A model generated the notes under the pieces. It had not been told where the DNA came from, ran no database searches, and saw nothing but the letters and a program-made list of their open reading frames with translations. A program made the translations under genes and the position numbers. Below, piece by piece: positions 15,298 to 40,789 of a stretch of 64,000 bases of DNA. Position 1 is the first letter of the stretch. Each line of letters begins with the position of its first letter. The DNA is from Lamellibrachia satsuma (lineage: Eukaryota; Annelida; Polychaeta; Sabellida; Siboglinidae): contig BSQZ01000035.1 in assembly GCA_033239005.1 (NCBI GenBank), forward strand, positions 4,802,501-4,866,500. Direction: 5' to 3'.

Positions 15298-15370
15298 TGT
15301 ATGTATGTATGTATGTATGTATGTATGTATGTATGTATGTATGTATGTATGTATGTATGTATGTATGTAT

Positions 15371-15409
<39 letters not shown>

Positions 15410-17754: not shown

Positions 17755-17883
17755 CTCGGTTACAGTGGCGCCCCTTGTGGCCAGGTTTGCACATACATTC
17801 ACCAGTGATGTGGTCACATGAACTGTTCTTGCTGCACCGACACACACCCTCACAATCAGGGCCAAATGTGCCCTCCTCACACC
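17755..17883 (-). CDS. MEGF6-like: EGF exon 24: one laminin-type EGF module
   Basis: 129 nt, phase 1-1, acceptor CCACAG, donor GTACGT. Starts CEEGTFGPDCEGVCRC and has SSCDHITGECMCKPGHKGRHC; eight cysteines. The module uses SKNSSC instead of NGxxC. Confidence 0.9.
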
Positions 17884-18208
17884 CTGTGGGGCACAGGCAG
17901 ACAGTGGTTAACTTGGCTGGTGCATCTAACATGATAGTTGGATATTTCCTCAAAACACTAAAATATATTTTTTAGAATATTTTTGTAACAAAAGAACACT
18001 TGGGTATAATATCATATTTGAATAAATACTCAAGATAAATGTTCAGTTTATGTGTTCCTTAGTAAAAAATCTCTTCAGTTGCCCTCAAGGTTGACTGGTT
18101 TCTGGGTCTCATATCATCATTTGAAAGCAGACAAAAAACTATATAATAAAATTGTTAATAATATAAAATAATGACAACGGTTGAGTGTTTGCCTGTAGAA
18201 TGACTTAC

Positions 18209-18337
18209 GTTTCTCGCATGCCAGACCCTTGTAGCCAGGTGGACAGAGACACTCTCCGGTGATGTGGTAGCATGGCTCACCAGATGCACATGTACACTTC
18301 TGTCCACAGCCAACACCGTATGTACCAGGCACACAAG
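18209..18337 (-). CDS. MEGF6-like: EGF exon 23: one laminin-type EGF module
   Basis: 129 nt, phase 1-1, acceptor TTGCAG, donor GTAAGT. Encodes [16 protein letters not shown], then [19 protein letters not shown]; eight cysteines. The Tyr in CYHITG replaces the usual Asp or Asn. Confidence 0.9.
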
Positions 18338-18548
18338 CTGCAACCACAACATTCACTTCACTTGTCGTCACTTCCGTCAGCATACAGCAGCTCTTGCTGA
18401 ACTCTAGGAAGGGTAATTTAAAGATATCAGTATGTCACAACTCAAAAGTTTGAGCAGTTTTTAAAAAATGTACTCCAAACAGCCTACATCTAACAGTAAC
18501 GCAGTGTGTGGATTTAGGTGTGCAGTGTCATTTAGAATCTGGCAAAGG

Positions 18549-18882
18549 TATGTTCTTATATAGCGCCATATCCAGTCCATAGGATCACTCAAAGCACTTT
18601 ACACTTCACCCCTGGAAGAAATATTCATTCCAACACCAACTTGACTTGCCTGAGAAACATTCAGCCATGCAGCAAATACTATGCAAAGAATAATTGGTCA
18701 CATATATCCACCACTGTCTATAGCCAGGTACTCATTTACACAGCTAAGCGAACAGAGACAACGTGGAGTGAACAAAATTGGCCAAGTTTCGAAATGGCAG
18801 TGACAGGATTCGAACCCTGGTTTTCTCAAATGAGAGTCCTATGTTCTAACCACCGTGTCACACTACACCACCATGCAACACC
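18549..18882 (-). mobile_element. tRNA-derived SINE, second copy of the family
   Basis: Minus-strand head has box A-like TGGTTAGAACATAGG and box B GGTTCGAATCC. Its body matches 14550-14845 (CAGGTACTCATTTACACAGC, ACAACGTGGAGTGA..., AAAGCACTTTACACTTCACC in plus reading). It has about 60 bp in the middle (around 18650-18715) that differ from the first copy. Confidence 0.78.
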
Positions 18883-18963
18883 ACCACGCCATTCCACAGG
18901 TAAGTGTGTCGATCTAGCGATAGGAGCAAGAAAACTATATGGAGTAGATATGTACACCTGCAA

Positions 18964-19256
18964 TGTTTACAGTATCAGAACCTGTCTGCTGTGGGCAGTG
19001 CAAGGTGCCAATGTTTAAAGTATCAGAACCTGTCTGCTGTGGGCAGTGCAAGGTGCCAATGTTTACAGTATCAGAACCTGTCTGCTGTGGGCAGTGCAAG
19101 GTGCCAATGTTTACGGTATCAGAACCTGTCTGCTGTGGGCAGTGCAAGGTGCCAATGTTTACAGTATCAGAACCTGTCTGCTGTGGGCAGTGCAAGGTGC
19201 CAATGTTTACAGTATCAGAACCTGTCTGCTGTGGACAGTGCATGGTGCCAATGTTT
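18964..19256. repeat. 48-bp minisatellite, 6 copies, touching the donor of EGF exon 22
   Basis: Six almost identical 48-bp units containing GTATCAGAACCTGTCTGCTG and GCAGTGCAAGGTGCCAAT. The last copy ends about 10 bp from the donor GTAAGT of the exon at 19268-19396. Because 48 is divisible by 3, all frames stay open, giving spurious reading frames on both strands. Confidence 0.97.
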
Positions 19257-19267
19257 TAATGACTTAC

Positions 19268-19396
19268 CTTTCTCACACATGCGTCCGTGCCAGCCGGCCT
19301 GACACTCACATGTTCCTGTCTCGTGGTTGCAGTGACCTCCATTGCGACACTCGCACTGCTCCAGACAGTCCTCACCATAGAAACCATCAGGACAGA
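19268..19396 (-). CDS. MEGF6-like: EGF exon 22: one laminin-type EGF module
   Basis: 129 nt, phase 1-1, acceptor TTTCAG, donor GTAAGT. CPDGFYGEDCLEQCECRNGG, then HETGTCECQAGWHGRMC; eight cysteines, close to family consensus. The downstream intron begins directly with a 48-bp tandem array. Confidence 0.92.
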
Positions 19397-19992
19397 CTGA
19401 AACATACACATGCACAATTGACACATCTGTGGCATCATTTTCATATGATATCTACATTTACATTATAACCAACACCAAACTTTGACTCTCTTTGAAATTT
19501 TAAGATTTAGTGCTTTCCAATACGTTAACAGCCCCAAATTTGTCATACTGGTCCACATCAGTGGGAATGGTGTCTAAATAAGTATGTTTAAGCAGGAGAG
19601 CAACAATGGTAAGTCACACACCCTGGTTTTGCCTGGGGAGCATTTATATTGTGCAGTCATTCAGAAGGAAATCACAAGGCTCAAAACACTTCATGATTCA
19701 TCAGTAATATATTATGTCCAAGCTATGTTATTCTCCAATCAGCATGGCTTTTAGCTAAATTTGCACATATTCTGCATTGTTTTCCACCTTCTTTGCAGAC
19801 ATAAAACACGTAAGGTCCCTATGTTAATTTATATTATCTCTATGTTATTGGTCTTATTTCTAAATGGTCGATTGTGTGTGTTATATTTTAATAACCAATC
19901 TTTCTAAGCCACTCGCAAGCATGAGCTCATCAACTAAATATGTGACATATGAAACATTGAACCAGCAGAAGATCTTCCCAGCCTTCACTTAC
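19397..19992. other. Intron between EGF exons 21 and 22
   Basis: No array, transposon signature or coding signal seen in about 600 bp. Confidence 0.5.
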
Positions 19993-20121
19993 TGTCAGTG
20001 CACTTGTCTCCTGAGTAGCCGACCTTGCACTGACACTTGCCACTGAAGCGGTCACATGAAACACTGTGTTCACAGTCACATGCACGCCCACAGTTCAGGC
20101 CGAACATGCCAGCTGGGCATT
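19993..20121 (-). CDS. MEGF6-like: EGF exon 21: one laminin-type EGF module
   Basis: 129 nt, phase 1-1, acceptor TCATAG, donor GTAAGT. CPAGMFGLNCGRACDC, then CDRFSGKCQCKVGYSGDKC; eight cysteines. Short simple ATT repeats at about 20210-20226 lie in the upstream intron. Confidence 0.9.
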
Positions 20122-20562
20122 CTATGACAGACACATAACGCATTCACTCACTTGTACAGAACAATTTCATTTCTTATATGACGTCTGCTTTTGTTATATA
20201 AGACTTCCATTATTATTATTATTATTGCTATAGAACACCTGGAATACAGATGATATTGGGAGATATTTGTGCCTGAAATTTGCTAACATTTGTGATTTTG
20301 TGTTTATACATGCAGCTAATAACTAATATTGTGGATGTTGTTTCCAAAAAAGTCACAAGCAAACTTGTATTTATTGTTGTCCACAGTACAATTGTTTAGT
20401 ATACATTCAAATGAATTATGCTGGCTCATAATCAATGGCAAACATTACAGATGACAATAAGTTAACTAACCAGTTCCAAATAAGCATGTTCCATATGCAA
20501 GATGTCTGAGATATTGTGCATTAACTTGATAACGGCAATGTTAGATGACATGTCCAACTGAC

Positions 20563-20691
20563 CTTGTTCACAGTAGAGCCCTGTCCAGCCTGATGTGCAG
20601 TTACAGTCGCCAGTCACATGGTTGCACTGACCTCCATTGACACAGCGACATCGCTGGGTGCATCCGACTCCGTAGAAACCCTCCGAACACT
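20563..20691 (-). CDS. MEGF6-like: EGF exon 20: one laminin-type EGF module
   Basis: 129 nt, phase 1-1, donor GTCAGT. The acceptor is TTTAAG, an AAG acceptor weaker than the CAG/TAG ones elsewhere in the gene; the phase and the module start (CSEGFYGVGCTQRC) support it. CNHVTGDCNCTSGWTGLYC completes eight cysteines. Confidence 0.88.
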
Positions 20692-20995
20692 CTTAAATAC
20701 AATCACATAACAATCACATGTCAACAAAACAAAATCATTGGCAGGGACACTTTTCATGATTTTAAAACTGCAAAACAGTATTACTACAAAGTAATAAATG
20801 TGTGCTATTATCTGTCAACGTCATTCAGTCTAAAATATTTAAACTGGAGGCTGGCACATTTCAACAGGCCCGACGGGCACAGTAAGCTTAAGCTAGACAA
20901 TTATACATGGAGGTATAAATTCAGAGAATTAATTCTGTTAAATATGATGAGATGTGAATGGGTTAACTAGCATATGAGCATGCTTGTGAACTTAC

Positions 20996-21086
20996 TTTCT
21001 TCACAATGTGGTCCAAACCAGCCCTGACGACACAGACACCTGCCAGTGATTGTGTCACAACTGCCTCCATTCCCACATCGACACTC
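20996..21086 (-). CDS. MEGF6-like: EGF exon 19: C-terminal part of a split EGF module
   Basis: 91 nt, enters in phase 0 and leaves in phase 1; acceptor TGGCAG, donor GTAAGT. It encodes ECRCGNGGSCDTITGRC, LCRQGWFGPHC and EE, the part of a module after the third cysteine. It completes the half module at the end of exon 18 (CPLGKFGKDCDK), so this intron cuts a module rather than separating two. Confidence 0.9.
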
Positions 21087-21625
21087 CTGCCAGACAGACA
21101 CACAGTTGACAATTTATGCAATTTAAATATAAATGTAAATAATAATTGACAGGCTGACTGACTGACTGATAATTATGACATACCACATCACAACCGATTT
21201 TATATTTGATATTAGTGACATGGACAGGCACTCTCATTCACTCTTCAAATGTTGCCATCTGATCATTAGGGTAGTATATGTTCTCATTGCATTGTTGTGT
21301 TACATCTTATATAAATTGCATGTGCTAAACATCCATAGCAACTGTTTATAACTGGAACTGCTTATCGATTATGAACTGCTTAACCCCTTTTTTGGTGCAC
21401 TAAGCTTGGGTCTCCCAGGGATCTTAGCGCAATACAAGTATTTGATATATTACTATTATTCTTTCAAATTTGTTACATGAAATCAACATCTGATTAGCCA
21501 TTACCAGAAGTAGAGTTAACATCGATGTGAGAATTTGTGAGATGGTGGTCTGTTATCCATAGCACAATTAATTACACTATGTGACATGTCATAAACAGTC
21601 ATAAACACATCACCATGTGACCCAC

Positions 21626-21921
21626 CTTATCACAGTCCTTGCCAAACTTGCCGAGTGGACATGAACTGGCACAGTTGCGTCCTGTCCAGCCGCTTGGACA
21701 GAAGCACTTGCCCATCACTGGGTTGCACTTGGCCCCACGTTCACAGTTGCAGATTCCCTGACAGTCGAGTCCAAAGAAGCCTTCTGGGCAGGCCTTCTCA
21801 CAGAACATGCCACGCCACCCAGGGGTGCAGAAACACCCACCGCTGATGTGTTCACACGACGCACCGTTCTGACACCGACAGATACGCTGACAGCCGGGAC
21901 CAAAGGTGCCATTCTTACATT
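21626..21921 (-). CDS. MEGF6-like: EGF exon 18: two and a third laminin-type EGF modules
   Basis: 296 nt, phase 1 to phase 0; acceptor TTGTAG, donor GTGGGT. Modules CKNGTFGPGCQRIC... and CPEGFFGLDCQGIC..., then the first third of a module (CPLGKFGKDCDK) that continues in exon 19. The lengths 2 + 98 codons fit the phase exactly. Confidence 0.92.
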
Positions 21922-22255
21922 CTACAAACCAACATACAACATCATGAAACATCAAAGCTGCTGTTTTGGTGTCTTGTCTTATGTATTAACTGAATATCTG
22001 AACAGTGTAAAATTAGTTAACATCAATAGCAGAACTTGGCAATATTAATCAAACAATCAATAATTTATTTCCAACACATACATAGATACAATGTACTTGA
22101 CAATGAGCTGTGTTGTTTGTGGCAATAGTGTGGATGTCACTGAGCGACTCCTTCATGTGTAAGCCTCAGTTACTTCATACTTACACAACTGAGTTAGCAA
22201 ATTTATCAACATTTAAGAAAATGTTGTTATAAAATGAGGTTTGATGTCTACTTAC

Positions 22256-22384
22256 TTTCATCACACCCCTCTCCCCTCCAGCCGGGGGCGCAGATGCATT
22301 CCCCTGAATGAGGGTCACATTCAGCACTGTTCTTGCACTGACAAGCCAGCTCACAGTTGCGTCCATATTTCCCTGGTGGACAGG
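22256..22384 (-). CDS. MEGF6-like: EGF exon 17: one laminin-type EGF module
   Basis: 129 nt, phase 1-1, acceptor TTGTAG, donor GTAAGT. CPPGKYGRNCELACQC, then CDPHSGECICAPGWRGEGC; eight cysteines. Confidence 0.92.
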
Positions 22385-23287
22385 CTACAAATGCACCAAA
22401 CTATGATCACTCTCACGGTGGCTCCTAAGATAGCGACCAACACTGGTCTTAGTTTTTGTTGTTGTTTTTTTAAGTTGAAATTGTCATGGTATTGTATGTA
22501 TGTATCGATTCTATGTATGTATCGATTCTATGTATGTATATGACTAATTTATGTTACTGTTTTGCTATGGGTCAAAGCACAACAATCAATCAATCAATCA
22601 GTCAATCAATCAATCTATGCTTGCCTTGTAGACGATGTAAAACTTCACAAACCATTACATCTGTACCTTGATGGAATACTTTAAATACACAAGACATTTA
22701 ATGGCGCCCAATACTAGGACAATGCAGTTTCATCAGTGTCTAGTTACTAGACAAACATACAAGATGTTTGTGATTTTATGGTCAAAACATTTAATCCAGA
22801 ATCAACATTAATATGAGAAATAAAACAAATCTACTAAACTAAAACACAACAGATATTGAAGAAAACATATTCTAAATTCCACTCTTTTAAGGAGCTGTAT
22901 CAAAACATATTTGGTACTAAACAAAATTGGTTTCACTGCTGTGAAGCTGTTTCATCTGATGTCATAGTGATGTATGTTTTATAAAAAACATCATTTATTT
23001 TTCGATAATAGTTTATAAAAGTTCTGACTTTGAGTGCATGCCGGCAGTTGTGCGTAATGATGACTGTAGTGCCACATTGCAAATTAACAGTTGCTGAAGT
23101 TGCTCATAGGCCAATGTACTACGATGTTTCATATAGGTAGGGGTCTGATGCTAAATGACATTGGTTTTGTGTAGTGTTGTACATGAATGTTTAGAGATAG
23201 CACCTAACAAACGGTGAAAACAGTGAATAAACAAATGCATCCATTCTTGTGATGAAGCACATGTTGCCTGGACCAAGGAAGACTTAC
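22385..23287. other. Intron between EGF exons 16 and 17
   Basis: Contains short TATG-type repeats at about 22494-22540 and a (CAAT)n/(TCAA) stretch at about 22583-22615. The rest is ordinary AT-rich sequence. Confidence 0.6.
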
Positions 23288-23416
23288 GCTGGTCACACAT
23301 TTGTCCCATCCACCCCTCGGTGCAGTTACAGTGGCCCTCCAAGGGATTGCAGGTTGCGCCGTTCTCACACTGGCACCGCAGCAGACACTGTGTACCGTAG
23401 CGCCCCTCAGGACACA
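23288..23416 (-). CDS. MEGF6-like: EGF exon 16: one laminin-type EGF module
   Basis: 129 nt, phase 1-1, acceptor TGCCAG, donor GTAAGT. CPEGRYGTQCLLRCQC, then CNPLEGHCNCTEGWMGQMC; eight cysteines; NCT is a potential N-glycosylation site. Confidence 0.92.
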
Positions 23417-23898
23417 CTGGCAACACACGATATAATGTCAGCCATGGGGCACTTCTTGCCATCTACGCTAGGTAGTCAGCCTAGTACAATGACTTGTTTT
23501 TACTCCATTGTGTTTCCACTGACCACAGTTAAACAACTAACTTAGGATTGTATGTTACAAAATATAACACATAGACCTTTGTAAGTCCACTCTTGTCTGT
23601 CAAGTGTTCACAGATGTTGAGACACTGCTGCAATGACCAGGCTTTCCAGCGACATTGCTTGCAATGGCTTTCAATGTGACAACTTGCATTATAAAAATCA
23701 AGTTTGTTAAAGATAAAACACGTTATTCATCATAGAACATATCTAGTAACAACTTCTACATGTAAAGGAAGTAAAGTATGTTTTCTTAATGCACTGCTTG
23801 AGCCTACATGCTAAGTTTATTCCCCTCATTGCTCCCACCCTGCTGGAAGGGAAGCCGGAGGGGAAGCTGGCTGGGAGGAGATCGAATGACCGACTCAC
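23417..23898. other. Intron between EGF exons 15 and 16
   Basis: No element recognised in about 480 bp. Confidence 0.5.
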
Positions 23899-24027
23899 TT
23901 TGCTCGCAGTGTTTGCCAACCCAGCCTGGCATACAGATACACTCGCCCGTGACCGTATCACAGCCGTTCGAGTTGATGCAGTCACACTTCTCCTCACAGT
24001 TGATGCCCCATGCTCCAGGTTGACAGT
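23899..24027 (-). CDS. MEGF6-like: EGF exon 15: one laminin-type EGF module
   Basis: 129 nt, phase 1-1, acceptor CTGCAG, donor GTGAGT. CQPGAWGINCEEKCDC, then GCDTVTGECICMPGWVGKHC; eight cysteines. The spacing NSNGC mimics that of exon 12 (SSNGC). Confidence 0.92.
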
Positions 24028-24190
24028 CTGCAGCAAGTAGCAGCTAACATAACCAAATAATCACAACTGTTAAGTTAAATTATATTCTTTGTGATATTTT
24101 TTACACAGGTCACTTCTTTACAATGTGGCATTGTATTTGCTACTCAAACTGGCCATGTGACTTCATTGTGACATTTCATTGGCTACTTAC

Positions 24191-24316
24191 CATGGTGACA
24201 TGACTCGCCAGTCTTGCCTGCCTCGCAGACACACTCTCCAGTCTCTGGGTTGCACTCGCTGTCTCCACACGCACACTCGAACAGACAGTTGACCCCGTAA
24301 CGACCCCTTGGACATG
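24191..24316 (-). CDS. MEGF6-like: EGF exon 14: one laminin-type EGF module
   Basis: 126 nt, phase 1-1, acceptor TTGCAG, donor GTAAGT. 42 residues, one shorter than typical, because of CGDSEC in the middle; CPRGRYGVNCLFEC and NPETGECVCEAGKTGESC flank it. The upstream intron carries the large 54-bp array. Confidence 0.9.
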
Positions 24317-24466
24317 CTGCAAGCCAGGGAACATCTAATTGACATTATGACAGCATCACATGCAACATTCAGGATTACATCAGTTGATATGCATACCAGA
24401 AAGTTGTGTTACAATTGCAACTTCAAAACTATTTCTGACAGGGTTGAAAAAAAATCAGAAATACAT

Positions 24467-27360
24467 GTCTAACCTGGAGCCAGACAAACATCATCAATGA
24501 CTGAGTCACCTGTAATGGAAGTCTAACCTAGGGCCAGACAAACATCGCCAATGACAGTGTCACCTGTAATGGAAGTCTAACCTGGAGCCAGACAAACATC
24601 GTCAATGACTGAGTCACCTGTAATGGAAGTCTAACCTGGAGCCAGACAAACATCGTCAATGACTGAGTCACCTGTAATGGAAGTCTAACCTGGAGCCAGA
24701 CAAACATCGTCAATGACTGAGTCACCTGTAATGGAAGTCTAACCTAGGGCCAGACAAACATCATCAATGACAGTGTCACCTGTAATGGAAGTCTAACCTA
24801 GGGCCAGACAAACATTGTCAATGACTGAGTCACCTGTCATGGAAGTCTAACCTAGGGCCAGACAAACATCGTCAATGACTGAGTCACCTGTAATGGAAGT
24901 CTAACCTGGAGCCAGACAAACATCGTCAATGACTGAGTCACCTGTAATGGAAGTCTAACCTAGGGCCAGACAAACATCATCAATGACAGTGTCACCTGTA
25001 ATGGAAGTCTAACCTAGGGCCAGACAAACATCGTCAATGACTGAGTCACCTGTAATGGAAGTCTAACCTGGAGCCAGACAAACATCGTCAATGACTGAGT
25101 CACCTGTAATGGAAGTCTAACCTAGGGCCAGACAAACATCATCAATGACAGTGTCACCTGTAATGGAAGTCTAACCTAGGGCCAGACAAACATTGTCAAT
25201 GACTGAGTCATCTGCAATGGAAGTCTAACCTGGAGCCAGACAAACATCATCAATGACTGAGTCACCTGTAATGGAAGTCTAACCTGGAGCCAGACAAACA
25301 TTGTCAATGACTGAGTCACCTGTAATGGAAGTCTAACCTGGAGCCAGACAAACAGTGTCAATGACTGAGTCACCTGTAATGGAAGTCTAACCTGGAGCCA
25401 GACAAACATTGTCAATGACTGAGTCACCTGTAATGGAAGTCTAACCTGGAGCCAGACAAACATCGTCAATGACTGAGTCACCTGTAATGGAAGTCTAACC
25501 TGGAGCCAGACAAACATCGTCAATGACTGAGTCACCTGTAATGGAAGTCTAACCTAGGGCCAGACAAACATCATCAATGACAGTGTCACCTGTAATGGAA
25601 GTCTAACCTAGGGCCAGACAAACATTGTCAATGACTGAGTCACCTGTCATGGAAGTCTAACCTAGGGCCAGACAAACATCGTCAATGACTGAGTCACCTG
25701 TAATGGAAGTCTAACCTGGAGCCAGACAAACATCGTCAATGACTGAGTCACCTGTAATGGAAGTCTAACCTAGGGCCAGACAAACATCATCAATGACAGT
25801 GTCACCTGTAATGGAAGTCTAACCTAGGGCCAGACAAACATTGTCAATGACTGAGTCATCTGCAATGGAAGTCTAACCTGGAGCCAGACAAACATCATCA
25901 ATGACTGAGTCACCTGTAATGGAAGTCTAACCTAGGGCCAGACAAACATCATCAATGACAGTGTCACCTGTAATGGAAGTCTAACCTGGAGCTAGACAAA
26001 GAGTGTCAATGACTGAGTCACCTGTAATGGAAGTCTAACCTGGGGCCAGACAAACATTGTCAATGACTGAGTCACCTGTAATGGAAGTCTAACCTGGAGC
26101 CAGACAAACATCGTCAATGACTGAGTCACCTGTAATGGAAGTCTAACCTGGAGCCAGACAAACATCGTCAATGACTGAGTTACCTGTAATGGAAGTCTAA
26201 CCTAGGGCCAGACAAACATCATCAATGACAGTGTCACCTGTAATGGAAGTCTAACCTAGGGCCAGACAAACATTGTCAATGACTGAGTCACCTGTCATGG
26301 AAGTCTAACCTAGGGCCAGACAAACATCGTCAATGACTGAGTCACCTGTAATGGAAGTCTAACCTGGAGCCAGACAAACATCGTCAATGACTGAGTCACC
26401 TGTAATGGAAGTCTAACCTAGGGCCAGACAAACATCATCAATGACAGTGTCACCTGTAATGGAAGTCTAACCTAGGGCCAGACAAACATTGTCAATGACT
26501 GAGTCATCTGCAATGGAAGTCTAACCTGGAGCCAGACAAACATCATCAATGACTGAGTCACCTGTAATGGAAGTCTAACCTGGAGCCAGACAAACATTGT
26601 CAATGACTGAGTCACCTGTAATGGAAGCCTAACCTGGAGCCAGACAAACAGTGTCAATGACTGAGTCACCTGTAATGGAAGTCTAACCTGGGGCCAGACA
26701 AACATTGTCAATGACTGAGTCACCTGTAATGGAAGTCTAACCTGGAGCCAGACAAACATCGTCAATGACTGAGTCACCTGTAATGGAAGTCTAACCTAGG
26801 GCCAGACAAACATCGCCAATGACAGTGTCACCTGTAATGGAAGTCTAACCTAGGGCCAGACAAACATCGTCAATGACTGAGTCACCTGTAATGGAAGTCT
26901 AACCTAGGGCTAGACAAACATCATCAATGACAGAGTCACCTGTAATGGAAGTCTAACCTGGGGCTAGACAAAAATCGTCAATGGCTGAGTCAGCCAGACA
27001 AACATTGTCAATGACTGAGTCACCTGTAATGAAAGTCTAACCTGGGGCTAGACAAATATCGTCAATGACTGAGTCATCCGCAATGGAAGTCTAACTTGGG
27101 GCTTAGCAAACATTGTCAATGACTGAGTCATCTGCAATGGAAGTCTAACCTGGAGCCAGACAAACATCATCAATGACTGAGTCACCTGTAATGGAAGTCT
27201 AACCTGGGGCCAGACAAACATTGTCAATGACTGAGTCACCTGTAATGGAAGTCTAACATGGGGCCAGACAAACATCCTCAATGACTGAGCCATCCACAAT
27301 GGAAGTCTAACCTGGGGCCAGACAAACAATGTCAATGACAGAGTCTTCCATAGTGGAAGT
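24467..27360. repeat. 54-bp minisatellite, about 53 copies, with a 12-unit higher-order repeat
   Basis: Unit of 54 bp with GCCAGACAAACATCGTCAAT and GACTGAGTCACCTGTAATGG. The rare variant CATCTGCAATGG recurs at 25209, 25857 and 26505, exactly 648 bp (12 x 54) apart, and again at 27129. The variant CACCTGTCATGG at 25641 and 26289 has the same 648-bp period. About three quarters of the copies contain TGAGTCA; the rest have GACAGTGTCACC. The right end (26960-27360) is more diverged. It fills the intron between exons 13 and 14. Confidence 0.97.
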
Positions 27361-27424
27361 CCTGCACACTTCCGAAGCATGTGGACATAAATATAAGATG
27401 TAAACGTGAGTGTTGAGGACATAC

Positions 27425-27611
27425 GTTTGTCACAGCTCATGCCCATCCAGCCCGATGAGCAGTTGTAAAGACAGATGCCCGTCACAAAGTCACAGTTGAT
27501 GTCTTTCTCACACTCGCACCGTTTACGACACCACTCTCCATAGAAGCCAGAAGGACACGGCACCTCACACTTCTGACCATGGTAGCCCGGGTGACAGATG
27601 CATTTACCATC
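27425..27611 (-). CDS. MEGF6-like: EGF exon 13: one and a half laminin-type EGF modules
   Basis: 187 nt, phase 0 in and phase 1 out; acceptor CTGCAG, donor GTATGT. Begins DGKCICHPGYHGQKC, which completes the module opened in exon 12, then CPSGFYGEWCRKRCEC... The last module reads CLYNCSSGWMG where CxC is usual: two extra residues between these cysteines. The donor lies about 65 bp from the 54-bp array. Confidence 0.9.
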
Positions 27612-27866
27612 CTGCAGGCACAGGACAGGTATGAAGGCAGTGGGTCAAAGGCTCTTTAAATAATCACATGATGATCAATCAATGCAATGTGTCAGTACAC
27701 TGTGATTATAAGCTCTTTTTCATTGAAATGGGTGAGAGATTAAATATGAAAAAAATGTATAATTATTTCGAAATCATACTGCTTAATTTAGGTATAAAAA
27801 TACCACAATCAATAAAAAATATTACCAAAAATATGTGTCATGTAACTGTCTGTGTACAACTTAGAA

Positions 27867-28761
27867 GATCACCTACCAGCCACCTACCTTGGGGTCACAG
27901 CCATTGGAACTTAGATCTCCTACCTTGAGGTCACAGCCACTGGAACTTACATCACCTACCTTGGGGTCACAGCCATTGGAACTTAGATCACCTACCTTGG
28001 GGTCACAGCCATTGGAACTTAGATCACCTACCTTGGGGTCACAGCCATTGGAACTTAGATCACCTACCTTGGGGTCACAGCCATTGGAACTTAGATCACC
28101 TACCTTGGGGTCACAGCCACTGGAACTTAGATCACCTACCTTGAGGTCACAGCCATTGGAACTTAGATCACCTACCTTGGGGTCACAGCCATTGGAACTT
28201 AGATCACCTACCTTGGGGTCACAGCCACTGGAACTTAGATCACCTACCTTGGGGTCACAGCCATTGGAACTTAGATCACCTACCTTGGGGTCACAGCCAT
28301 TGGAACTTAGATCACCTACCTTGGGGTCACAGCCATTGGAACTTAGAAGATCACATACCTTGGGGCCACAGCCACTGGAACTTAGATCACCTACCTTGAG
28401 CTCACAGCCATTGGAAATTAGAAGATCACCTACCTTGGGGACACAGCCACAGGAACTTAGATCACCTACCTTGGGGTCACAGCCATTGGAACTTAGAAGA
28501 TCACCTACCTTGAGGTCACAGCCATTGGAAATTAGAAGATCACCTACCTTGGGGTCACAGCCACTGGAACTTAGATCACCTACCTTGGGGTCACAGCCAT
28601 TGGAAATTAGAAGATCACCTACCTTGGGGTCACAGCCATTGGAACTTAGAAGATCACCTACCTTGAGGTCACAGCCATTGGAAATTAGAAGATCACCTAC
28701 CTTGGGGTCACAGCCACCGGAACTTAGATCACCTACCTTGGGGTCACAGCCATTGGAACTT
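27867..28761. repeat. 36/39-bp minisatellite of splice-donor copies, about 24 units
   Basis: Units of 36 bp (some 39 bp, with AAGATC instead of AGATC-type spacing). On the minus strand each unit holds GGCTGTGACCCCAAGGTAGG, i.e. the exact 3' edge and donor of EGF exon 12. Variants include GACCTCAAG before the donor and one GTATGT donor (near 28356). Unit lengths are multiples of three and no stop occurs, so the minus frame of exon 12 is open through the whole array (27873-28958); the plus strand is also open. Confidence 0.97.
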
Positions 28762-28939
28762 TTTTTTGCACAGTCGCAGGAGTGTAGACAGTTGGGGCCC
28801 CATGACTGGCGGGGACAGGGCAGATTGCAGGATGGCCCAAACACACCGGCCGCACACTCACAGAATCCAAACATGCGGTTGCAGTAGCCACTGGGACATT
28901 GCTGCAGACACTTCTTGTCACAATCCTCCCCATACATAC
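28737..28939 (-). CDS. MEGF6-like: EGF exon 12: one and a half EGF modules, donor multiplied downstream
   Basis: 203 nt, phase 1 to phase 0; acceptor ATGTAG, first donor GTAGGT at 28736 downward. Starts MYGEDCDKKCLQQC and ends CDCAKKSSNGCDPK, which joins to DGKCICHPGYHGQKC of exon 13 to give a regular module. That join is why the first donor is chosen; about 24 further copies of the same donor follow in the intron, all phase 0 and all reachable in an open frame. The A8 run (AAAAAAAA, 28758-28766) just before the array is a slippage site. Confidence 0.88.
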
Positions 28940-29221
28940 CTACATTGATACACCACACAGATTAGTGAGAGCAAACGGTGGAGCATAGACAAAAATCTCA
29001 AGTCAACAAATTATGTTCATACTTAACTATAGCTAATTAAGGCAACCATTATTATGATAATTCATACTTGTTGAATATGCTCGTCATCAAAGATGTGATA
29101 TATGCAGATTGTCTTCCTACTCACTCAGAGACAAACACCATTTATTTACTTTGTATCATATTCACCAAAGAGGACTGCCAGGAGAAAGCCATAATTTCTG
29201 AGTAGTTTGTATCTTCCTCAC
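28940..29221. other. Intron between EGF exons 11 and 12
   Basis: 282 bp with nothing recognised beyond splice sites. Confidence 0.5.
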
Positions 29222-29351
29222 CAGGGGGACAGCCATCCTGACACTTGTCACCCTTGATGCCAGGCGGACAGCGACACTCGCCGGTGACAGGGTCGCAGGT
29301 CCCGCCATTCTCACACGTACAGATGCTGTTACACTCAGTGCCGTAGGTGCC
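29222..29351 (-). CDS. MEGF6-like: EGF exon 11: one laminin-type EGF module
   Basis: 130 nt, phase 0 in, phase 1 out; acceptor TTGCAG, donor [23 protein letters not shown], then [19 protein letters not shown], and it ends CPPG|, continued as MYGEDC in exon 12. The phase 0 start matches the phase 0 end of exon 10. Confidence 0.92.
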
Positions 29352-29579
29352 CTGCAAGTCACACAGACTCAATTATCAAGTGCACAAATATCAGCTTCTT
29401 CCTGAATGCATATGTGGCTGCATGGATATGTAAATGTGTACATGTATATATGCATGCATGCGCACACACACACATGCACGCACACACAAACAAGCATATA
29501 TACATGATGCATTACTACTATAAATGTTGTCTGTTAACTTAAAGGTAAAGACAGCAAGGAATGTACAACTGTGAACACC

Positions 29580-29735
29580 AGTGGGATAAGGAGGTGTACA
29601 ATGGAAACAAAGGGAAGACCATTGGGATAAGGAAGTGTACAATGAAAACATGGGTAAGACCAATGGGATAAGGTGTACAATGGAAACACGGGGAAGACCA
29701 ATGGGATAAGGAGGTGTGCAATGACAACACGGAGA
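29580..29735. repeat. 40-41 bp minisatellite, about 4 copies
   Basis: Units contain GTGTACAATGGAAACA and GGAAGACCAATGGGATAAGG. It lies in the intron between exons 10 and 11. Confidence 0.9.
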
Positions 29736-29862
29736 CAGTTAATGGTAAGAGCAGAAATTAAACAAATGGTAAGAACAGGAAAAGAATGAAACCAGAGGTT
29801 GATTTCAGCCATATGTGAATGAAAAACCATTGTTTTAGAGTAGATACAAGTGGGTGACTGAC

Positions 29863-30005
29863 CTCAGGACAGGTGGCATTGCACAGGAGATCAGTCCAGC
29901 CAGGGGAGCACAGGCAGCCCTTGCGTTCCTCGGTGCAGCTTCCCCCATTCAGACACGAGTTACAGCTGAACTCACAGTCTGGCCCAAACTCGCCGGGGAT
30001 GCATT
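29863..30005 (-). CDS. MEGF6-like: EGF exon 10: first laminin-type EGF module after the linker
   Basis: 143 nt, phase 1 to phase 0; acceptor CAACAG, donor GTCAGT. CIPGEFGPDCEFSC, then CLNGGSCTEERKGCLCSPGW and CNATCPE. NAT is a potential N-glycosylation site. It joins the linker exon 9 at its upstream end (AKI-K-CIPGEF). Confidence 0.9.
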
Positions 30006-31974
30006 CTGTTGACACACACGTGCACTATGAATGCTGCCACAATAGTCTGCCACTCAATCATTTATCGTGTTTACACCAAACGGTGCATCTGGCTTGTAGG
30101 CTCAGTTTTACAATGTAATAAGTTATTGCACAATCTTGTCAGCTCTCTATGTGGTGTTGCTGCACTAGCTGGCTGTAAAGGGAAAGGTGTAATATACACA
30201 GACTGATGTGTCACTACTGAGTTAGCCATGTGAAAATTATAGGTTTATAATCTGGGAGCTGATGAACTGCTTCAGTTATACTAAGCAGCTAATCATAGTT
30301 GTTTGCTTGGACGATTTACAAAATAGTTTTATTGACTACAGCATGACTATCACATCTGCATGTCAGCAAGTTTAACTTAAGAGTTGTTGTTTTAACTACA
30401 AATAACAATGTTCAATTATCACATTAGCAAATAAAACCATTCTATCACTAGAACTGCAATACAAAGAAAAAAGCAGTAGTAACCCAAAATATAATAAAAT
30501 AACATAACAGTATCCTATAACCACAGTAGTTACAGCAGGGCTCTATCTTTATCTACTAAGTTCACTATTTTCTAATGCATTGTGGACATCTTCAGAACAT
30601 CCACCAAGACAATAATAAATTATGACAGAGAAAAGCAAAGGAACCTAACAGATCTACTGAAGGCTACACAAAAGAAAAATGCAAGATTAATACAGTGAAA
30701 CTTCAATGATAAAAAGATACCTTTATATATACATTAGTAGAAGGCAAAGCAACAGTTAAGAAACAGTCATTTCAACTACCAAACTGTCACCAAACTGTCA
30801 CCAGGCACAGCACTAGTGGAAAGTGGCCAGTGATGGCCAGACCATTCATGTTTTACCTCGCTGAAACCCTCGTTGTCGCAACATTCTGGCCGGATAGTTC
30901 ACCTCCAACTCTAGTGGACTGAGGGTGACTATGGGGGTGTACGCATTGGGAAGAAAAACCAAGAAAATCACACAAGGAACAAGACAATACACAGGCACAC
31001 TTGGCATTTCTCACTGTGCATCTGATGATTAATACTCAAACATGCAATTTTCTGATCAGGTGCTACATAAAATATTTTATTTGTGCTTTTGGAAAATGTG
31101 TCACTTCTGGTTCAATTCATGTTCAAGAAATCCTCCTACATTAGAAGGATCCAATTAATTTTTTTAGCAATACGTGAATCATATTTTCAAGTATAAAACA
31201 TGAAACTGAACTGAAGTACCAAAGATGGGAAGATTATGTTCTCAAAGATCACAAAATACTGAAGTCAAACTGTACCATATGTATATATAGTTATGTATGA
31301 GTCTAAAACATTGGACTCATACATTTCATAAATCATTCATGATTACATGACATGGTCATCATTATATTAATAACATTACTATCATAATAATAAAAGAAAA
31401 TTAACATTCTCATGTGGTGCAATGATTTAAGTTGCACTGAACAAATCTCGAACAAAAGTTAAATGAAATTGAACTAAGTCCTAACTCAATTCAAATGAAG
31501 TTAAAGTGAACTGAGTCAGTACATAATTCAACTTTGGTCCAGGATGTCAACAGGGTGTCAACATGGTATCCAACTGCGCATGCATCACTATGTATTTCTA
31601 ACCAACAACTCAGCATTGTAATATTGCTATCTCACATAATCACATTTGGGTATATCTAGTGTTTTGATGTGTGTTTATGTACTATTGTTGCCACCATTAC
31701 TCAACAGACAGTCCGTTAGTTTGTGTTATCAAATAATTCTTGTACATCTTGAATTTCCCCTCCAAATATTAAAGCATCAACCACCCACACAATCAGTCTG
31801 CAAGGTTTTCTAAAATACAGCGAGACATGCCAGCCTTATTCACATTAAACAGCTGGCGTGTGATGAATATTTAGATAGGAAATTCAGTTTGGGCTGCAAA
31901 GAAAGAAACTGGTTTAAACATACATGTATAAACAAGTTGAAACCACTTATTTTTGCCATTTTTACAACTGCAGA

Positions 31975-32080
31975 TGATTCCCCCATGACTTATGTGCCAC
32001 AACTGTGAGTTGTGGATGGGAAGAGATGATTCCCCCACGACTTATGTGCCACAACTGTGAGTTGTGGATGGGAAGAGATG
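31975..32080. repeat. 52-bp direct duplication
   Basis: Two copies, one substitution apart, of a unit with GATTCCCCCATGACTTATGT and GTTGTGGATGGGAAGAGAT. Each unit contains a short palindrome CCACAACTGTGAGTTGTGG. Confidence 0.9.
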
Positions 32081-32337
32081 AGTCAAACATGGAGCTGTTG
32101 ACAGATGGTAGATAGCAGCACAAGCTCAACCTCAAAACACAATTAATTACCAATAAACCCTAGTCAATCCCAGGTGGGAAACATTCGTGTACTGCATTTG
32201 GATCACAGAACGTTTGATATGACAATATGATATGAAGCATGTATATAAATAAATGTATATGCATATAACAAATATATGCAAAATAAGAATGTGAATATGT
32301 ATTTATATGTAAACGTGTATAGGTGTATGTGTGTATG

Positions 32338-32339
32338 TT

Positions 32340-32416
<77 letters not shown>

Positions 32417-32464
32417 GAATGTGCATGTGTGTGCATGCGGTCGTGCATGATGTGTGTGTGCGTG

Positions 32465-32545
<81 letters not shown>

Positions 32546-32642
32546 GCATGCATACATGTTATGTGTCTGTGCATGCATGCATGTGTGTGTGTGCATGTGT
32601 GCATGCATGCATGCTTGCTTGCGTGCATGCATGCGTGTGTGT
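32338..32642. repeat. Compound (GT)n and GCAT-rich microsatellite
   Basis: Two long GT runs (32344-32403 and 32467-32541) separated by GT/AT/GCAT variants, followed by GCATGCATGC-rich sequence to 32640, which is alternating purine-pyrimidine throughout and thus Z-DNA prone. Confidence 0.97.
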
Positions 32643-34637
32643 TAATGTATGTTAGACTCATATTGTCTCACATTCCAGTAATCACAATGACAAGATGTAT
32701 GCATGTGTGGTGTGAATGTTCTATCATGTTACTTGTCAACACCTTGACATAATGGCAGTGACAGGATTAAACTGTAACCAGCACCCAAATCTAATTCAAG
32801 TTCCCCAAGTAGAATGCACCTTCATGTAAGCTAAAAAGGTCAGAAAGCAACAGACTGATACTGCATGATGGTGTCTTCCACAAGAGTCACTGAAATATAC
32901 TAAAACCAAAATTAAGCAACAAAAGCAAGTGGTTTCACAGAAAGAGAAGCAACAGCATTCACAGTGACAAAGTACAGTGTATATGGAAATACATTCACGT
33001 CTGATTAGACCAAACATACACTGTAGGTTCCAATAATGTGCTGAACAATTAGTGTGTTTGATTGGAGAAAACATTGTATGTTCATATATTCTGTACATAT
33101 CCTCTTAAATAAAAGTTTTTGCTTTCACTTCACAAACCTTTGTTGTTTGGTATCATTTCTTTACTAATTAAAGTGGGTTTTTGTTTTGATACATGTTATC
33201 ATGTCAGATAAATGTAATTTGACTAATTTTGGGGTCATAACAACATAAAATAATGTTTTATTTTATTGCCAAGTGAAAACTTATACATATAGAGTGAATA
33301 CTTTCATGCCAGTGAGATGAGGTTACAGGAACTAGAGTTGTGTTTGGCCATAGTAACCAGGAATGATACACAATGTGAAAGCACTGATCTCAGAAACACC
33401 AGTACATAGGGCTGACAACTGAAAAGGCACAAATTTCAATGTAGGTAAAATATTTAACATAGTAGCTTCAACCTGTATCATCAGGTTAAGCCAAATGATC
33501 TGCTAGGATTTATATAATTGATATTATAACGTATCACTGAAATTGGTGGATTACCAAAAAATTGTCATTACCCAGCACAGAAATGCACAAAATAAACAAT
33601 GCATTCTTAATCGTTAGATGCTCTAGTTCCATTCAATGATGCAAAAACTTAAATAAACATAATTACTAATCTACGCTGCACTCACTAGAACCAAAAACTC
33701 TGACACATTTTCTAAAGGAGCAAAACTCCAACAACTAAACATGTAAACAGTACATTCCTACAATGCCAACACATAACACAACTGCTAAAGCTGTTTCTGA
33801 AGCATTGTCTAAGCATAATCGAACAAAAGACAGTGAAGACCAATCACCTCTATAGGAAACAACAACAAGAACGTCGCCCACCAATCCACTTAACCAGAAA
33901 TATTAATCATTAATATCACATGATACATAAAACAGTGAAGTGAGAACCAAAACATAACTACTGAATGAACCATGGCAACTGCATGTGTACTGGTCATGAT
34001 CTCAAGAAACCAATGAAGACAGTGAATTCACCATCAGCCAATCAGCTCACACGTCATGATCGTTTCACAAAATGTTGTCCCAAAATGAGTAAATGCACTG
34101 TCTTCATAGATAGCATTAGCATAAAACCCGTGTTAATGGATGATTTGTACAACGACTGAGATGAGGAGACTGGCAGTAAGAGAAGGCCATACAATGCCTA
34201 CCTTGCTGTATTACCTTTAGTCCTGTTGATGCACACAAACAGATAACACAGATTTGTACCATCAACATCACTTCATTGTAGACACACAAGATTTAAAACA
34301 TCTCTACCCTACCCACACAAACATAAACACACAGAATGGTTCCATTCTCCTTATTTATGGTTATATAATAACACCTTTTCACATTTACTTAACTATTTAA
34401 TGCATGACACATGATGCATGATGGTGAACACACAAACTGATCCAAACAAGTGCTCAGTTCCTTACTACAGCACTGAAATAACACCAAATACACTCATCCA
34501 ACAATTTGTAATAGAGTATTTAAATGTGAATGGGTCGTAGAACCTACAATAGATTCCTGATACATTTAATTAAGAAATGACATGCCCACATGCAGCATTT
34601 AGGGATTTAATTATCAGGAAAAATGAACAGAACTTAC

Positions 34638-34799
34638 TTATTTTGGCTTCAGGGCCCATGAGTTCAAGATGGTTGATACCCTCATTGTCAAGGGCAACGA
34701 TCGGACGTTGTGTGGGAGCATAGTGTACTACAGGGATATTCCCACTTTCTGGTCCCTTCTGATTCTCCCCTCCCCAAACAAATTTGGGGTTCTTCTCCA
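34638..34799 (-). CDS. MEGF6-like: Exon 9: cysteine-free linker between cbEGF and laminin-type EGF blocks
   Basis: 162 nt (54 codons), phase 1-1, acceptor TTGCAG, donor GTAAGT. It contains no cysteine: EKNPKFVWGGENQKG, PVVHYAPTQRPIVALDNEG, then HLELMGPEAKI. It is accepted as an exon because phases match on both sides, splice signals are good, and the frame is open with non-repetitive protein-like composition. No domain is recognised; it probably forms a flexible hinge. Confidence 0.72.
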
Positions 34800-35342
34800 C
34801 TGCAACAGGCAACAGCTTCAAGACTGAATCACTTTGGGATGTATTATAATAACATTCAGACAGACCTTTACTACTAAATGTATATGTAATTTGGTTGGTA
34901 AGTGCAATCAAAGATATGCTTGAGAGTAGAGATTAATGACTTTATATATCTCTGTTAATGTTAAACAAGTACTTGGTATGCTTTGTACATATTGGCTGCT
35001 ATTCTCTCCTGTGATTCCTTGTTATGCTGTCCTTCACACTATGTTACTCTCAAGGAAAACAATATTCACACATGCACGCGCGCGCACGCATGTACACACG
35101 CACACACACACACACACACTAGAAGTCTAGAACAAATGAAACTATCAAATAGCTCAAGTATTGCAAATTATATGTTTTCTACATATATATTCCTTTTACC
35201 TAACTGATGCTAAATGCTTAAATGCAGTTCATAGCAAAAATGTTTAACTTTTACAACAAATTTAAACCCCAGTGACAATACCACAACTACAGGTACAACA
35301 CCCCCATTTATTTACCCCCCTTGTCATGAGTGATGACCATAC
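34800..35342. other. Intron between exons 8 and 9
   Basis: A short (CA)n stretch at about 35075-35120; otherwise nothing recognised. Confidence 0.5.
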
Positions 35343-35468
35343 CTTTGATACAGCGCCGGCCATCTTGAGATAGGCGATAACCGACATTGCAGACACACTC
35401 ATATGCGCCCTCCGAGTTGACACAGATCTGTTCACAGCGGCCGTTGTTGTTCTCACACTCATTGATGT
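35343..35468 (-). CDS. MEGF6-like: EGF exon 8: calcium-binding-type EGF module
   Basis: 126 nt, phase 1-1, acceptor TTGCAG, donor GTATGG. DINECENNNGRCEQIC, then CVNSEGAYECVC, which fits C-x-N-x4-Y-x-C-x-C (Asn hydroxylation and calcium site), and DGRRC at the end. Six cysteines. Confidence 0.93.
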
Positions 35469-35885
35469 CTGCAATGGACAGTAGAGGTCAGTTCTTAGTA
35501 CTGTACATTTCCTGATCTGATCACTCATATCTTATTTTAACACCATCACATTTTTACTAAGAGTAATAACTCAGAATGTGATTGTTGAATTTTCAGATTT
35601 CTAAATTCATTAAATTACAAAAAAATTTACAATCATCTGCAACTTTCCCATTACCAATAGGCTGATCTTGTTCATAACACTGCAACAAAATATACACAGT
35701 AAAAACAAAGTAAACAGTAATTTATTCATCATAAATCAACAGTAAGTGAATTTGCAACATAACTTTACACAAAGAATATATATTTAAATGCATTAAGTAA
35801 AAGCATGTGTGATCATAGCATGCAGAGAGCACCGCTGATGGTGCCAAGGCACAATGTAGAATTAACGACAGAAGAAGGAACAAAC
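35469..35885. other. Intron between exons 7 and 8
   Basis: 417 bp of AT-rich sequence; nothing recognised. Confidence 0.5.
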
Positions 35886-36008
35886 CTATGCAGCTGCATC
35901 CATCAGACCCGAGCATGAAGCCAAGCTTACACTCGCAGGTGAAACTGCCTGGTATGTTAGTGCACAGTTGACTGCAGCATGACTGACTCAGTGTGCACTC
36001 ATCCATGT
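35886..36008 (-). CDS. MEGF6-like: EGF exon 7: calcium-binding-type EGF module with extra cysteines
   Basis: 123 nt, phase 1-1, acceptor ACACAG, donor GTTTGT (non-consensus at +3/+4). DMDECTLSQSCCSQLC, CTNIPGSFTCEC fits the hydroxylation motif, end GSDGCSCI. It has eight cysteines where six are normal: the added ones are in SCC and GCSC, and could form an extra bridge. Confidence 0.9.
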
Positions 36009-36550
36009 CTGTGTGTGTGGCCACACAAGACCGTGCCAAGTGCAAGAATAATAAGAAATGTGCAAATGTAAGTAAAGGCAACACACGGTAAAGTTTGAAA
36101 GATACTTGGTGAAAAGGAGGGGTCAAACATAACTAAATGTTTCATACATAATCAGAAATTTAGCATCTTACAAATTCCTGTGAACTTCTAATAAAAATCA
36201 GTCTCAAATGTTTGCATGGGGAATGTTCAAATTAACTTTCTTTAAATAGAAATACATTAAAGATGTTAATGGCTCCACAGTCAGGTAACCCACAACGCAT
36301 ATTTGTCACCCAAAACTAACAATGAAACTAAAAACCACAAACATCTTTAAATAATACTTAATAATCTACACAAAACCTTAATCCCATGTTTGCTTCATTG
36401 AAATATATTTAATAATACAATTGTATGCAATGAACCATTCACTGTGTGAAACGAGCCATTTATACTAACAGACTGAAAATCAATGCAAAGAAACATGTAA
36501 TAAAAGTGCCCAACACCATATATCACTTTGTGACAGCTTGTTAAACTCAC
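36009..36550. other. Intron between exons 6 and 7
   Basis: About 540 bp without recognised content. Confidence 0.5.
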
Positions 36551-36688
36551 CTTCGCAAGTCCTGCCGTCTGCCTGCAGCATGTATCCCTTATGACATGAA
36601 CAAATAGGGCCTCCTACACCATGCTTGCATTCGTGGTCACAACCGCCATTGTTTGTTGCACAACTATCGATAACTTCCATTTCAATTG
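36551..36688 (-). CDS. MEGF6-like: EGF exon 6: EGF module with short N-terminal extension
   Basis: 138 nt, phase 1-1, acceptor TTTCAG, donor GTGAGT. AIEMEVIDSCATNNGGC precedes HGVGGPICSCHKGYMLQADG; six cysteines. It lacks the D-x-D/N-E start and the Asn/Tyr pair, so it probably does not bind calcium. Its upstream intron carries a 3-kb LINE. Confidence 0.9.
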
Positions 36689-36838
36689 CTGAAACAAATC
36701 AAACAACTTATGCGCTGATACTACTTTGTACATTGCAAGCAGAAAACATTTAGAAAGCTTTGCAAATTTCTACATATAAGATATACATATCTTTTTTAAT
36801 TAACTCACTCTAAGAATAAATATTCATACACATACAAT

Positions 36839-37714
36839 ATGTTTATCATACTTGATTTTAAGCTTCATGTCTATCAACGAGGGCACAGGTACCATAAATT
36901 ATTTAAACTAGATGCGCAGGGGGAACTGACAGAGAAAACTCAAAGGAGTACTACTACAAATACACATCCAAAGAAATGTTCACCAATAATTTCAGACAAT
37001 GAACTTAAATGTGTATGCTTAAATGCCAGGAGCATAGTAAATAAAAAAAGTGAGTTAGATATTATGGTAGCAGATATTGATCCTCATGTAATAGGCATCA
37101 CAGAATCATGGGCAAATGAAGATATAGTAGATGCTGAGTTAGCACTGACAGGCTATGTAATGTTTAGGAAGGATAGACGAGAAAGAAGGGGAGGTGGAGT
37201 AATTTTGTATATTAAAGAATCTATCCAAGCATATGAAATTACACTGAAAAGTGAAGCAGATAGAGTGGAAGCAATTTGGTGTAACATAGTTACCAGGAAC
37301 TCAACATTAACAATAGGAGTAGTTTATCATAGTCCTAACATAGGACAAGAGGAAGATGTAAAATTACAAAAGGCGATAAGGGAGGTGAGCAAGGGAGAAT
37401 GTGTTATAATGGGTGATTTTAACCATGGCCATATACAATGGGAATCATTAGAGAGTACTGGAGGTGACGACCATCAGTTTCTACTTCTAACACAGGATTG
37501 TTTCCATACTCAACATGTCTTGGAACCAACCAGAGGTGGGAATATGTTAGATTTAATTTTGTCTTCTCAAAAAGAATTAGTTGACAATGTTAAAATACAT
37601 GAACCTTTGGGTTCAAGTGACCATAACCAAATCCATTTTAATATAAAAGTAAAAACAGGGAATACATATAAAAACAATGGAGGAGGAACTTCAACAAAGG
37701 CAAATATAAAGTGA
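36839..37714 (+). pseudogene. Endonuclease domain of the CR1/Jockey-group LINE
   Basis: About 290 codons open. The domain order NARS, TESW, Gly-rich GGGVILYIKE, VYHSPN, GDFNH, LDLIL and SDHN is complete, so the endonuclease itself looks intact; the frame ends before the RT and the linker resumes in another frame at 37711. Confidence 0.85.
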
Positions 37715-38895
37715 TGAGAACATATCTAGCAAATATAGATTGGAATAACTTGCTGAAGTACAAGACAGCAACAGAATGCTGGACTTGTTTAAAATACGAG
37801 ATTGAGGGCATTATTGAGAAATTTATTCCATTAAGAACACAAGGGAAAAGATCCAGGAAAAAACACCTGTCAAAAGAAGCTATTAGAAAAATTGCGCACA
37901 AACAGATGCTGTGGAGGGTCTATAAACACACTGGAAATGTAGAAGACTACACAAACTACAAAGAGGCACTTAACCTAGCTACAACTGAAATTAGAAAATC
38001 TAAAAGAACCTTTGAACAAAAATTGGCAGGTAATATAAAAAATGACAGCAAGAGTTTCTATGCTTATGTAAGGAGTAAACAGAAAGTTCGAGATAAGGTC
38101 GGACCACTGGAAAACAACAGTGAAAACATAATTTCAGATGGGTTCCAAATGGCAGAGGTCCTGAATGAGTATTTCAGCTCAGTTTTTACCACAGAAGATA
38201 TCAGTTCACTTCCAGTTCCATTGACTAAATTTGAGGGCAATAAATCAGAATATTTAGGGCAGTTATTTGTAACTCCTGAAATGATAGCAAAGAAAATTAA
38301 GAAGATGAAAGACAATAAATCACCTGGAGTTGATGGGATACCACTAAAACTGCTAAAGGAAATTGTTGATCAAATTAGTACACCACTTGCAAACTTATTT
38401 AACTAGTCACTAGAAGAAGGAATAGTTCCTTCAGAATGGAAAGAAGCAAACATTACGCCGCTATTTAAGAAGGGATTGAGGAAGAAGCCAGAAAATTACA
38501 GACCAGTGAGTTTAACATCAGTTGTATGTAAATTACTCGAAACATTAATTAGAGACCACATGGTGGAATTCCTCGTAAAACATAAATTAATAAATACATC
38601 TCAACATGCATTCCTAAAAGCAAGGTTATGTCTAACCAATCTCTTATGTTTTTTAGAAGAAATTACAAAGTGGGTAGATCACGGGTCACCAGTGGATGTT
38701 GTCTACTTAGATTTTCAGAAAGGTTTTGATAAAGTGCCACATCAAAGATTGTTACTTAAACTAAAAGCCCATGGTATAGGCAATGATGTAATCAACTGGA
38801 TAGAAAAGTGGCTTACACATAGAAGACAGAGAGTAATAGTAGATGGTGAGATTTCAAACTGGAAATCTGTGGGGTACCACAGGGATCAGTATTAG
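37711..38895 (+). pseudogene. Linker and reverse transcriptase part of the LINE
   Basis: Two in-frame open segments (37711-38406 and 38476-38895) are divided by TAG at 38404. They run from the post-endonuclease linker through the RT to HRRQRVIVDGEISNWK; the next conserved block (PQGSVLGPILF) is in a shifted frame. Gly replaces Ala in the usual KAFD motif (FQKGFDKV). Confidence 0.85.
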
Positions 38896-39061
38896 GCCCT
38901 ATACTGTTTTTAATATATATAAATGATTTGGAGGATGACATATCTAGCAAAGTACTCAAAAGTATGACACAAAAGTATTCAGAAAGGTTACTAATGATAC
39001 AGATAAACAAAGTTTACAGGATGATCTAGAAAAATTAGTTAAATGGTCAGAAAAATGGCAA

Positions 39062-39764: not shown

Positions 39765-39872
39765 ATGAGAAAATTGTTGGACTCTCGATAAGCCAATGGC
39801 TTCCTTGTCCACTTGCCATCTGGAACTTGTTGTTCGAGATGGCAATCTTGTTAAATCTTGTTAAATCTTGTT

Positions 39873-40778: not shown

Positions 40779-40789
40779 CTAGAAATCAC

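Follow-up and report, generated by a model that had tools for sequence, protein, structure and literature searches.

We analyzed a 64,000-nt stretch of the Lamellibrachia satsuma genome (contig BSQZ01000035.1, positions 4,802,501 to 4,866,500; below, the window, whose own coordinates are used) and found that a MEGF6-like gene on its minus strand contains 24 splice donors in a row. Each donor lies in a tandem copy of a segment that runs from the end of an exon into the following intron. This array is probably a tolerated boundary minisatellite of the type called 'mirage', in which donor 1, the copy continuous with the exon, makes the functional mRNA and some leakage to the other donors is possible. 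Coordinates of the features are collected in Table 1.

Architecture and probable origin of the donor array

The last exon base of the donors runs from 28737 (the first) to 27888 (the last). The donor sequence is AAG/GTAGGT, the slash marking the exon-intron boundary, in 22 of the 24 copies; the remaining two are AAG/GTATGT (28359) and AAG/GTAGGA (27924). Tandem Repeats Finder (TRF) detected the array independently at 27881-28761, with a period of 36, 23.9 copies and a score of 1405. Sixteen of the 23 donor spacings are 36 nt and seven are 39 nt. The 39-nt units all fall within units 3 to 12; from unit 13 through unit 24 the length is uniformly 36 nt. These data confirm a first-pass annotation of this DNA, which had described about 24 tandem copies of an exon end with its donor in units of 36 or 39 bp. 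Its further statements, that every unit ends in Gly-Cys-Asp-Pro-Lys and carries AAG/GTAGGT, need narrowing to 16 of the 23 later units (the other seven differ) and to the 22 exact donors. Donors and acceptors were scored with a rough position matrix entered by hand on the basis of common splice-site knowledge; by this measure the density of donors is far above chance, the array holding 22 of the 27 minus-strand sites in the window that score at least 10.15.

Since GTAGGT is directly followed by another GT, a second donor overlaps the main one four bases further on. Such shadow donors, TAG/GTGATC or TAG/GTGATG, are present in 21 of the 24 units (28733-27956, minus strand). They score 5.2-5.6 against 10.2 for the main donors, are out of phase and lead to a stop once joined to the next exon. 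Two extra sites were also seen: GAT/GTAAGT at 27951 (score 8.6), which is in phase and open, and CTG/GTAGGT at 27877 (score 8.2), which is out of phase and leads to a stop. Out-of-phase sites within the array mean that the reading frame is not safe under every choice of donor.

The repeat begins within the exon. Its first copy, which begins AAGTTCC, is continuous with the exon (AAAAAAAAGTTCC...CCCAAG/GTAGGTGATCT), while past the last copy there is an extra 11-nt piece, GTAGGTGGCTG, after which the intron resumes as GTAGGTGATCTTCTAAGTTGTACAC. Consequently AAGTT flanks the 39-nt unit on both sides. This unit consists of 25 nt of exon end and 14 nt of intron start, and the 36-nt unit is the same sequence less three bases (CTT in the alignment). 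The array was probably born by tandem duplication of the 39-nt segment between the two AAGTT microhomologies and probably then expanded to 24 copies by slippage or unequal exchange, a single 3-nt deletion giving rise to the 36-nt unit; the donor would have been carried along in each new copy. The placement of 39-nt and 36-nt units is what local homogenisation would be expected to give.

Host gene, reading frame and predicted products

The host gene was modelled with 28 exons in consistent phases from 44254 to 5424 on the minus strand; the model covers the interior of the gene, and both ends lie beyond it. Exon boundaries were set manually, guided by site scores and the reading frame, with six acceptors and two donors placed by motif. 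The exons on either side of the array, numbered 12 and 13 in the first-pass annotation, are exons 11 and 12 of this model. Introns of the gene are 163-5853 nt long. Pfam searches, performed on parts of the model only, gave eight cEGF and five EGF_CA matches to the EGF modules of the first eight exons and assigned a later stretch to EGF_laminin. The gene is called MEGF6-like on the basis of calcium-binding-type EGF modules followed by many laminin-type ones and of MEGF6 proteins as the closest relatives. The closest proteins are MEGF6-like proteins of Mytilus (52% over 575 residues) and Mya (63% over half of one searched region, 44% over 336 residues in another search). In an eight-row tree the window gene grouped with the Mytilus and Mya proteins (support 93/97, just below the 95 mark); the other groups were three vertebrates (99/98) and two long-branched flatworms (99/97), and no amphioxus MEGF6 was included.

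All 24 donors were spliced in silico to the acceptor at 27611. Every join was in phase and free of stops, with 0 to 283 residues added; between donor 1 and donor 24, exon length rises from 203 to 1052 nt while intron length falls from 1125 to 276 nt. An eight-cysteine EGF module was obtained from donor 1 only. Each later unit adds one cysteine, or two in the case of the units leading to donors 9 and 12, and the module has from 8 to 33 cysteines across the 24 donors. Pfam recognized two EGF_laminin stretches in the donor-1 form (the best at 59-104), whereas the donor-3 form gave a single one, located in the next module. The array frame ends at a TAG (27875-27873), so read-through beyond donor 24 truncates the protein. 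It had been proposed that all donors are in phase 0, that no stop occurs across the array and that each unit adds one cysteine. This is correct for the 24 strong donors, for the frame through all of them and for most units; it does not extend to the shadow donors and the site at 27877, to the TAG just past the last unit, or to the two units that add two cysteines.

How often an open, in-phase unit arises by chance was estimated with random boundary units, comprising 10-40 exon bases and 7-40 intron bases, at the other 27 donors of the gene (n=28,458). Such units were in frame in 33% of cases and both in frame and open in 23.9%, and selection on the frame was for this reason dropped as evidence. 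Once a unit is born as a multiple of three and loses three bases in one deletion, later copies inherit the phase. For comparison, unit length is divisible by three in 10 of 28 TRF rows of the window, and at least one frame is open in 14 of the 28; these rows were picked by hand from 72 (unit at least 16, length at least 100, overlapping rows and one dinucleotide row removed).

The 23 later copies contain 11 distinct variant codons, of which 10 change the amino acid and one is silent, against an expected silent fraction of 0.23-0.26. Codon variation in the array thus looks neutral, though the events are few. Stop codons are expected in only 0.014-0.019 of changes; with stops in less than 2% of changes, their absence says little. 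Selection on the donors was also considered, and the variants are too few to decide on it.

Among 37 fetched relatives, 36 had their best phmmer alignment across the junction of the two exons, and none of these 36, a mixture of orthologous and paralogous EGF modules, carries a 12-residue insertion there. Insertions of 1-2 residues near the junction were seen in four of them. The 37th, P0037, reads ...SGCDPK and continues with non-repeat residues. The MEGF6-like protein P0011 of Mya arenaria departs from the pattern just past the junction and by eye appears to go out of frame right after CNPK, its counterpart of this exon junction, probably owing to a gene-model error at that intron. When the array peptide was used as a query, none of 8000 scored database candidates matched at E<=1e-10; these were the best-sharing candidates of suitable length, and the search words were drawn mostly from the repeat. 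A second protein search with 3534 candidates gave one match, the short relative P0037, which is without the array.

Choice among the donors

According to the reading that we favour, mRNA for the conserved protein would be made by joining donor 1 to the next exon, the remaining 23 donors being intronic. The latter probably leak, and would then produce in-frame proteins lengthened by 12 to 283 residues, among them 1 to 25 additional cysteines; leakage at shadow donors would yield frameshifted forms. Leaked forms of either kind are likely to be functionless. The first-pass annotation had left two options, an array tolerated because the first donor always wins or a ladder of protein forms. The former fits the data better, because only donor 1 gives an eight-cysteine module, because splicing at comparable arrays of amphioxus is reported to be undisturbed (see below), and because about one in four random boundary units is in frame and open.

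Several observations weigh against use of donor 1. GT is intact at all 24 array donors. Donor 1 is not stronger than the others, 22 of the 24 scoring 10.2, a value tied for fourth among the 28 modelled donors of the gene. In folding predictions with three window sizes, donor 1 came 19th, 24th and 24th among the 24 donors in accessibility; a position among the least accessible donors counts against a simple win of donor 1. Furthermore, where identical donors compete, the one closest to the acceptor, here donor 24, may be preferred.

Alternatively, the array could be harmful or could tune expression: later donors and their shadows would compete with donor 1, and normal mRNA would fall with copy number, much as the activity of human CBS is reported to do with its repeat (see below). 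Equal strength of the later donors and the premature stops that shadow donors would introduce are in line with this explanation. However, the shadow donors are weak, and since every strong donor keeps the frame, switching between strong donors would not in itself lead to decay. We regard this explanation as unlikely.

Rather improbable, in our opinion, is a ladder of isoforms with a function or a selective effect, in which many donors are used, n x 12-13 residues are added and the range is set by copy number. The intact GT, the equal scores of 22 donors and the phase and openness of all 24 would be explained by it, and the resulting introns (276-1125 nt) fall inside the range of the gene. However, the common phase reduces to about two events, the 39-nt birth and the 3-nt deletion, and the chance rate of a birth in an open frame is about 0.24. 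The variants do not look protein-constrained, some longer forms would have odd cysteine numbers, exons would be up to 1052 nt long, and a shadow donor leading to a stop lies in 21 of the 24 units. Among the 8000 and the 3534 candidates of the two database searches, no protein with the array was found. The ladder is without direct support and is further weakened by the shadow donors.

Other minisatellites of the gene and the window

Table 1. Features on the minus strand of the window connected with the donor array and its host gene
Feature	Position	Strand	Basis
MEGF6-like gene, 28 exons modelled, ends beyond model	5424..44254	minus	gene model, protein matches, Pfam, tree
Exon, 203 nt, ending at donor 1, phase 0 (exon 12 of the first-pass annotation)	28737..28939	minus	acceptor, donor, frame
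Donor-type boundary minisatellite, 24 copies of exon end and donor	27888..28761	minus	repeat scan, donor listing, spacings
Donor 1 (GTAGGT), source of the eight-cysteine module	28731..28736	minus	donor listing, splice-join test
Donor 24 (GTAGGT), the final one; leaves a 276-nt intron, gains 283 residues	27882..27887	minus	donor listing, splice-join test
TAG closing the array frame directly past the final unit	27873..27875	minus	translation ...CDPKVGGW, then stop
Following exon, 187 nt (exon 13 of the first-pass annotation), acceptor TGCCTGCAG/GAT, phase-matched to 24/24 donors	27425..27611	minus	acceptor scoring, gene model, splice joins
Acceptor-type boundary minisatellite, intron end and exon start, units of 51, 54, 54, 57 and 57 nt	13443..13735	minus	TRF, splice-site scoring, splice joins
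Exon with its acceptor in the last copy of the acceptor-type array	13204..13461	minus	acceptor scoring, gene model, splice joins

A second boundary minisatellite of the gene is of the acceptor type. AG is intact at three of its five unit ends, before exon starts 13461 (the real one), 13629 and 13683, and is lost in two copies. Use of the AG before 13629 or 13683 would keep phase and an open frame, adding 56 or 74 residues, respectively. With two boundary-overlapping arrays in the gene no excess of such arrays was detected (P(>=2) of 0.17 with 12 rows and 0.14 with 11 merged arrays). Three more minisatellites, at 5578-6432, 18961-19256 and 40791-40916, are each separated by 12 to 17 nt from an exon of the gene, which suggests birth of minisatellites near exon edges. 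In total, 5 of the 11 merged arrays are within 20 nt of a splice site. The probability of at least four was 0.031 under random placement of units and 0.00015 when whole arrays were placed inside introns, five being reached in none of 20,000 trials; the 20-nt cut-off was chosen post hoc, a single gene was considered, and for the second null only the intronic portion of the two overlapping arrays was used. One could go further and suppose that minisatellites are born preferentially at exon edges and that the donor array, because its unit lengths are divisible by three, works as a length dial, with donor choice and copy number jointly producing a ladder of EGF-protein forms; this combination we consider very doubtful. 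An assembly or sequencing artefact is hardly credible, for although tandem arrays are prone to mis-assembly and the copy number could be wrong, there are private variants, two ordered unit lengths, non-repeat flanks and one continuous gene around the array, and many further arrays are present within the window.

Most of the intron following exon 27425..27611 is occupied by a minisatellite with a 54-bp unit and about 53 copies (24467-27361, listed by TRF as two rows). The interval from 27424 to 24400 contains 36 donor-like sites scoring above 7.5 and eight acceptor-like sites above 3.0. On the plus strand, 55838-58193 contains 76-bp tandem arrays that lie inside a longer repeat of about 0.8 kb, and inspection by eye showed acceptor-like and donor-like motifs in each unit, CCTGTGCCAG and TTGTAG/GTATGA.

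Relation to known boundary arrays

Boundary minisatellites as a class are already known from the amphioxus 'mirages' and from a variable number tandem repeat (VNTR) in human CBS, and by its sequence the donor array appears to resemble both. In amphioxus, mirages were described in Adh3 and in the globins BflGb6 and BflGb9; Adh3 data together with reverse transcription PCR of globins suggested that regular splicing is undisturbed, and globin boundary arrays had 6 and 3 units in two haplotypes (PMC3087553). The units found here likewise each span the exon-intron boundary, and splice signals are kept, GT at 24 of 24 donors and AG at three of five unit ends of the acceptor-type array. In contrast to the mirages, the donor array has 24 copies, all with units that are multiples of three and an open frame, and is located in a gene that groups with bivalve MEGF6-like proteins (93/97, in the tree without amphioxus MEGF6).

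The 31-bp CBS VNTR is named c.1444_1467+7(16_21) (PMC2630376), and a review states that more repeat units go with lower CBS activity (PMC5188458). In our own reading, the name puts the exon end inside the first copy and describes a unit of 24 nt of exon end and 7 nt of intron start with 16-21 donor copies. Units of the donor array are likewise composed of exon end and intron start, and its gene model and relatives suggest that the exon may end in the first copy. Because 31 is not divisible by three, use of alternative CBS donors would shift the frame, whereas units of 36 and 39 keep it. Population variation is known for CBS; the donor array is represented here by one genome sequence.

Some likeness exists also to intron gain by tandem duplication of an AG/GT-bearing segment at or across an exon-intron boundary, for which the Rogers model and the potato RdRp and fission yeast cases have been described (PMC4974935). 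At the donor array, however, no new intron is evident: none of its AGs scored above 0 as an acceptor, a cut-off below which 7 of the 28 modelled acceptors of the gene also fall. Two other candidate parallels were set aside, the miR-137 VNTR because its new donors lie in pre-miR-137 sequence and a Conus case because it concerns simple repeats.

The donor array appears to extend the mirage type of boundary minisatellite, described in amphioxus, to a gene whose neighbours in the tree are bivalve proteins. Competition among identical donors has mostly been studied with a few engineered copies; here spliceosome choice among 24 near-identical donors is presented as a natural test. As the same MEGF6-like gene has an acceptor-side array too, choice of donor and of acceptor could be read in one transcript. 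If arrays truly cluster at exon edges, this would point to a mutational bias that could feed intron gain.
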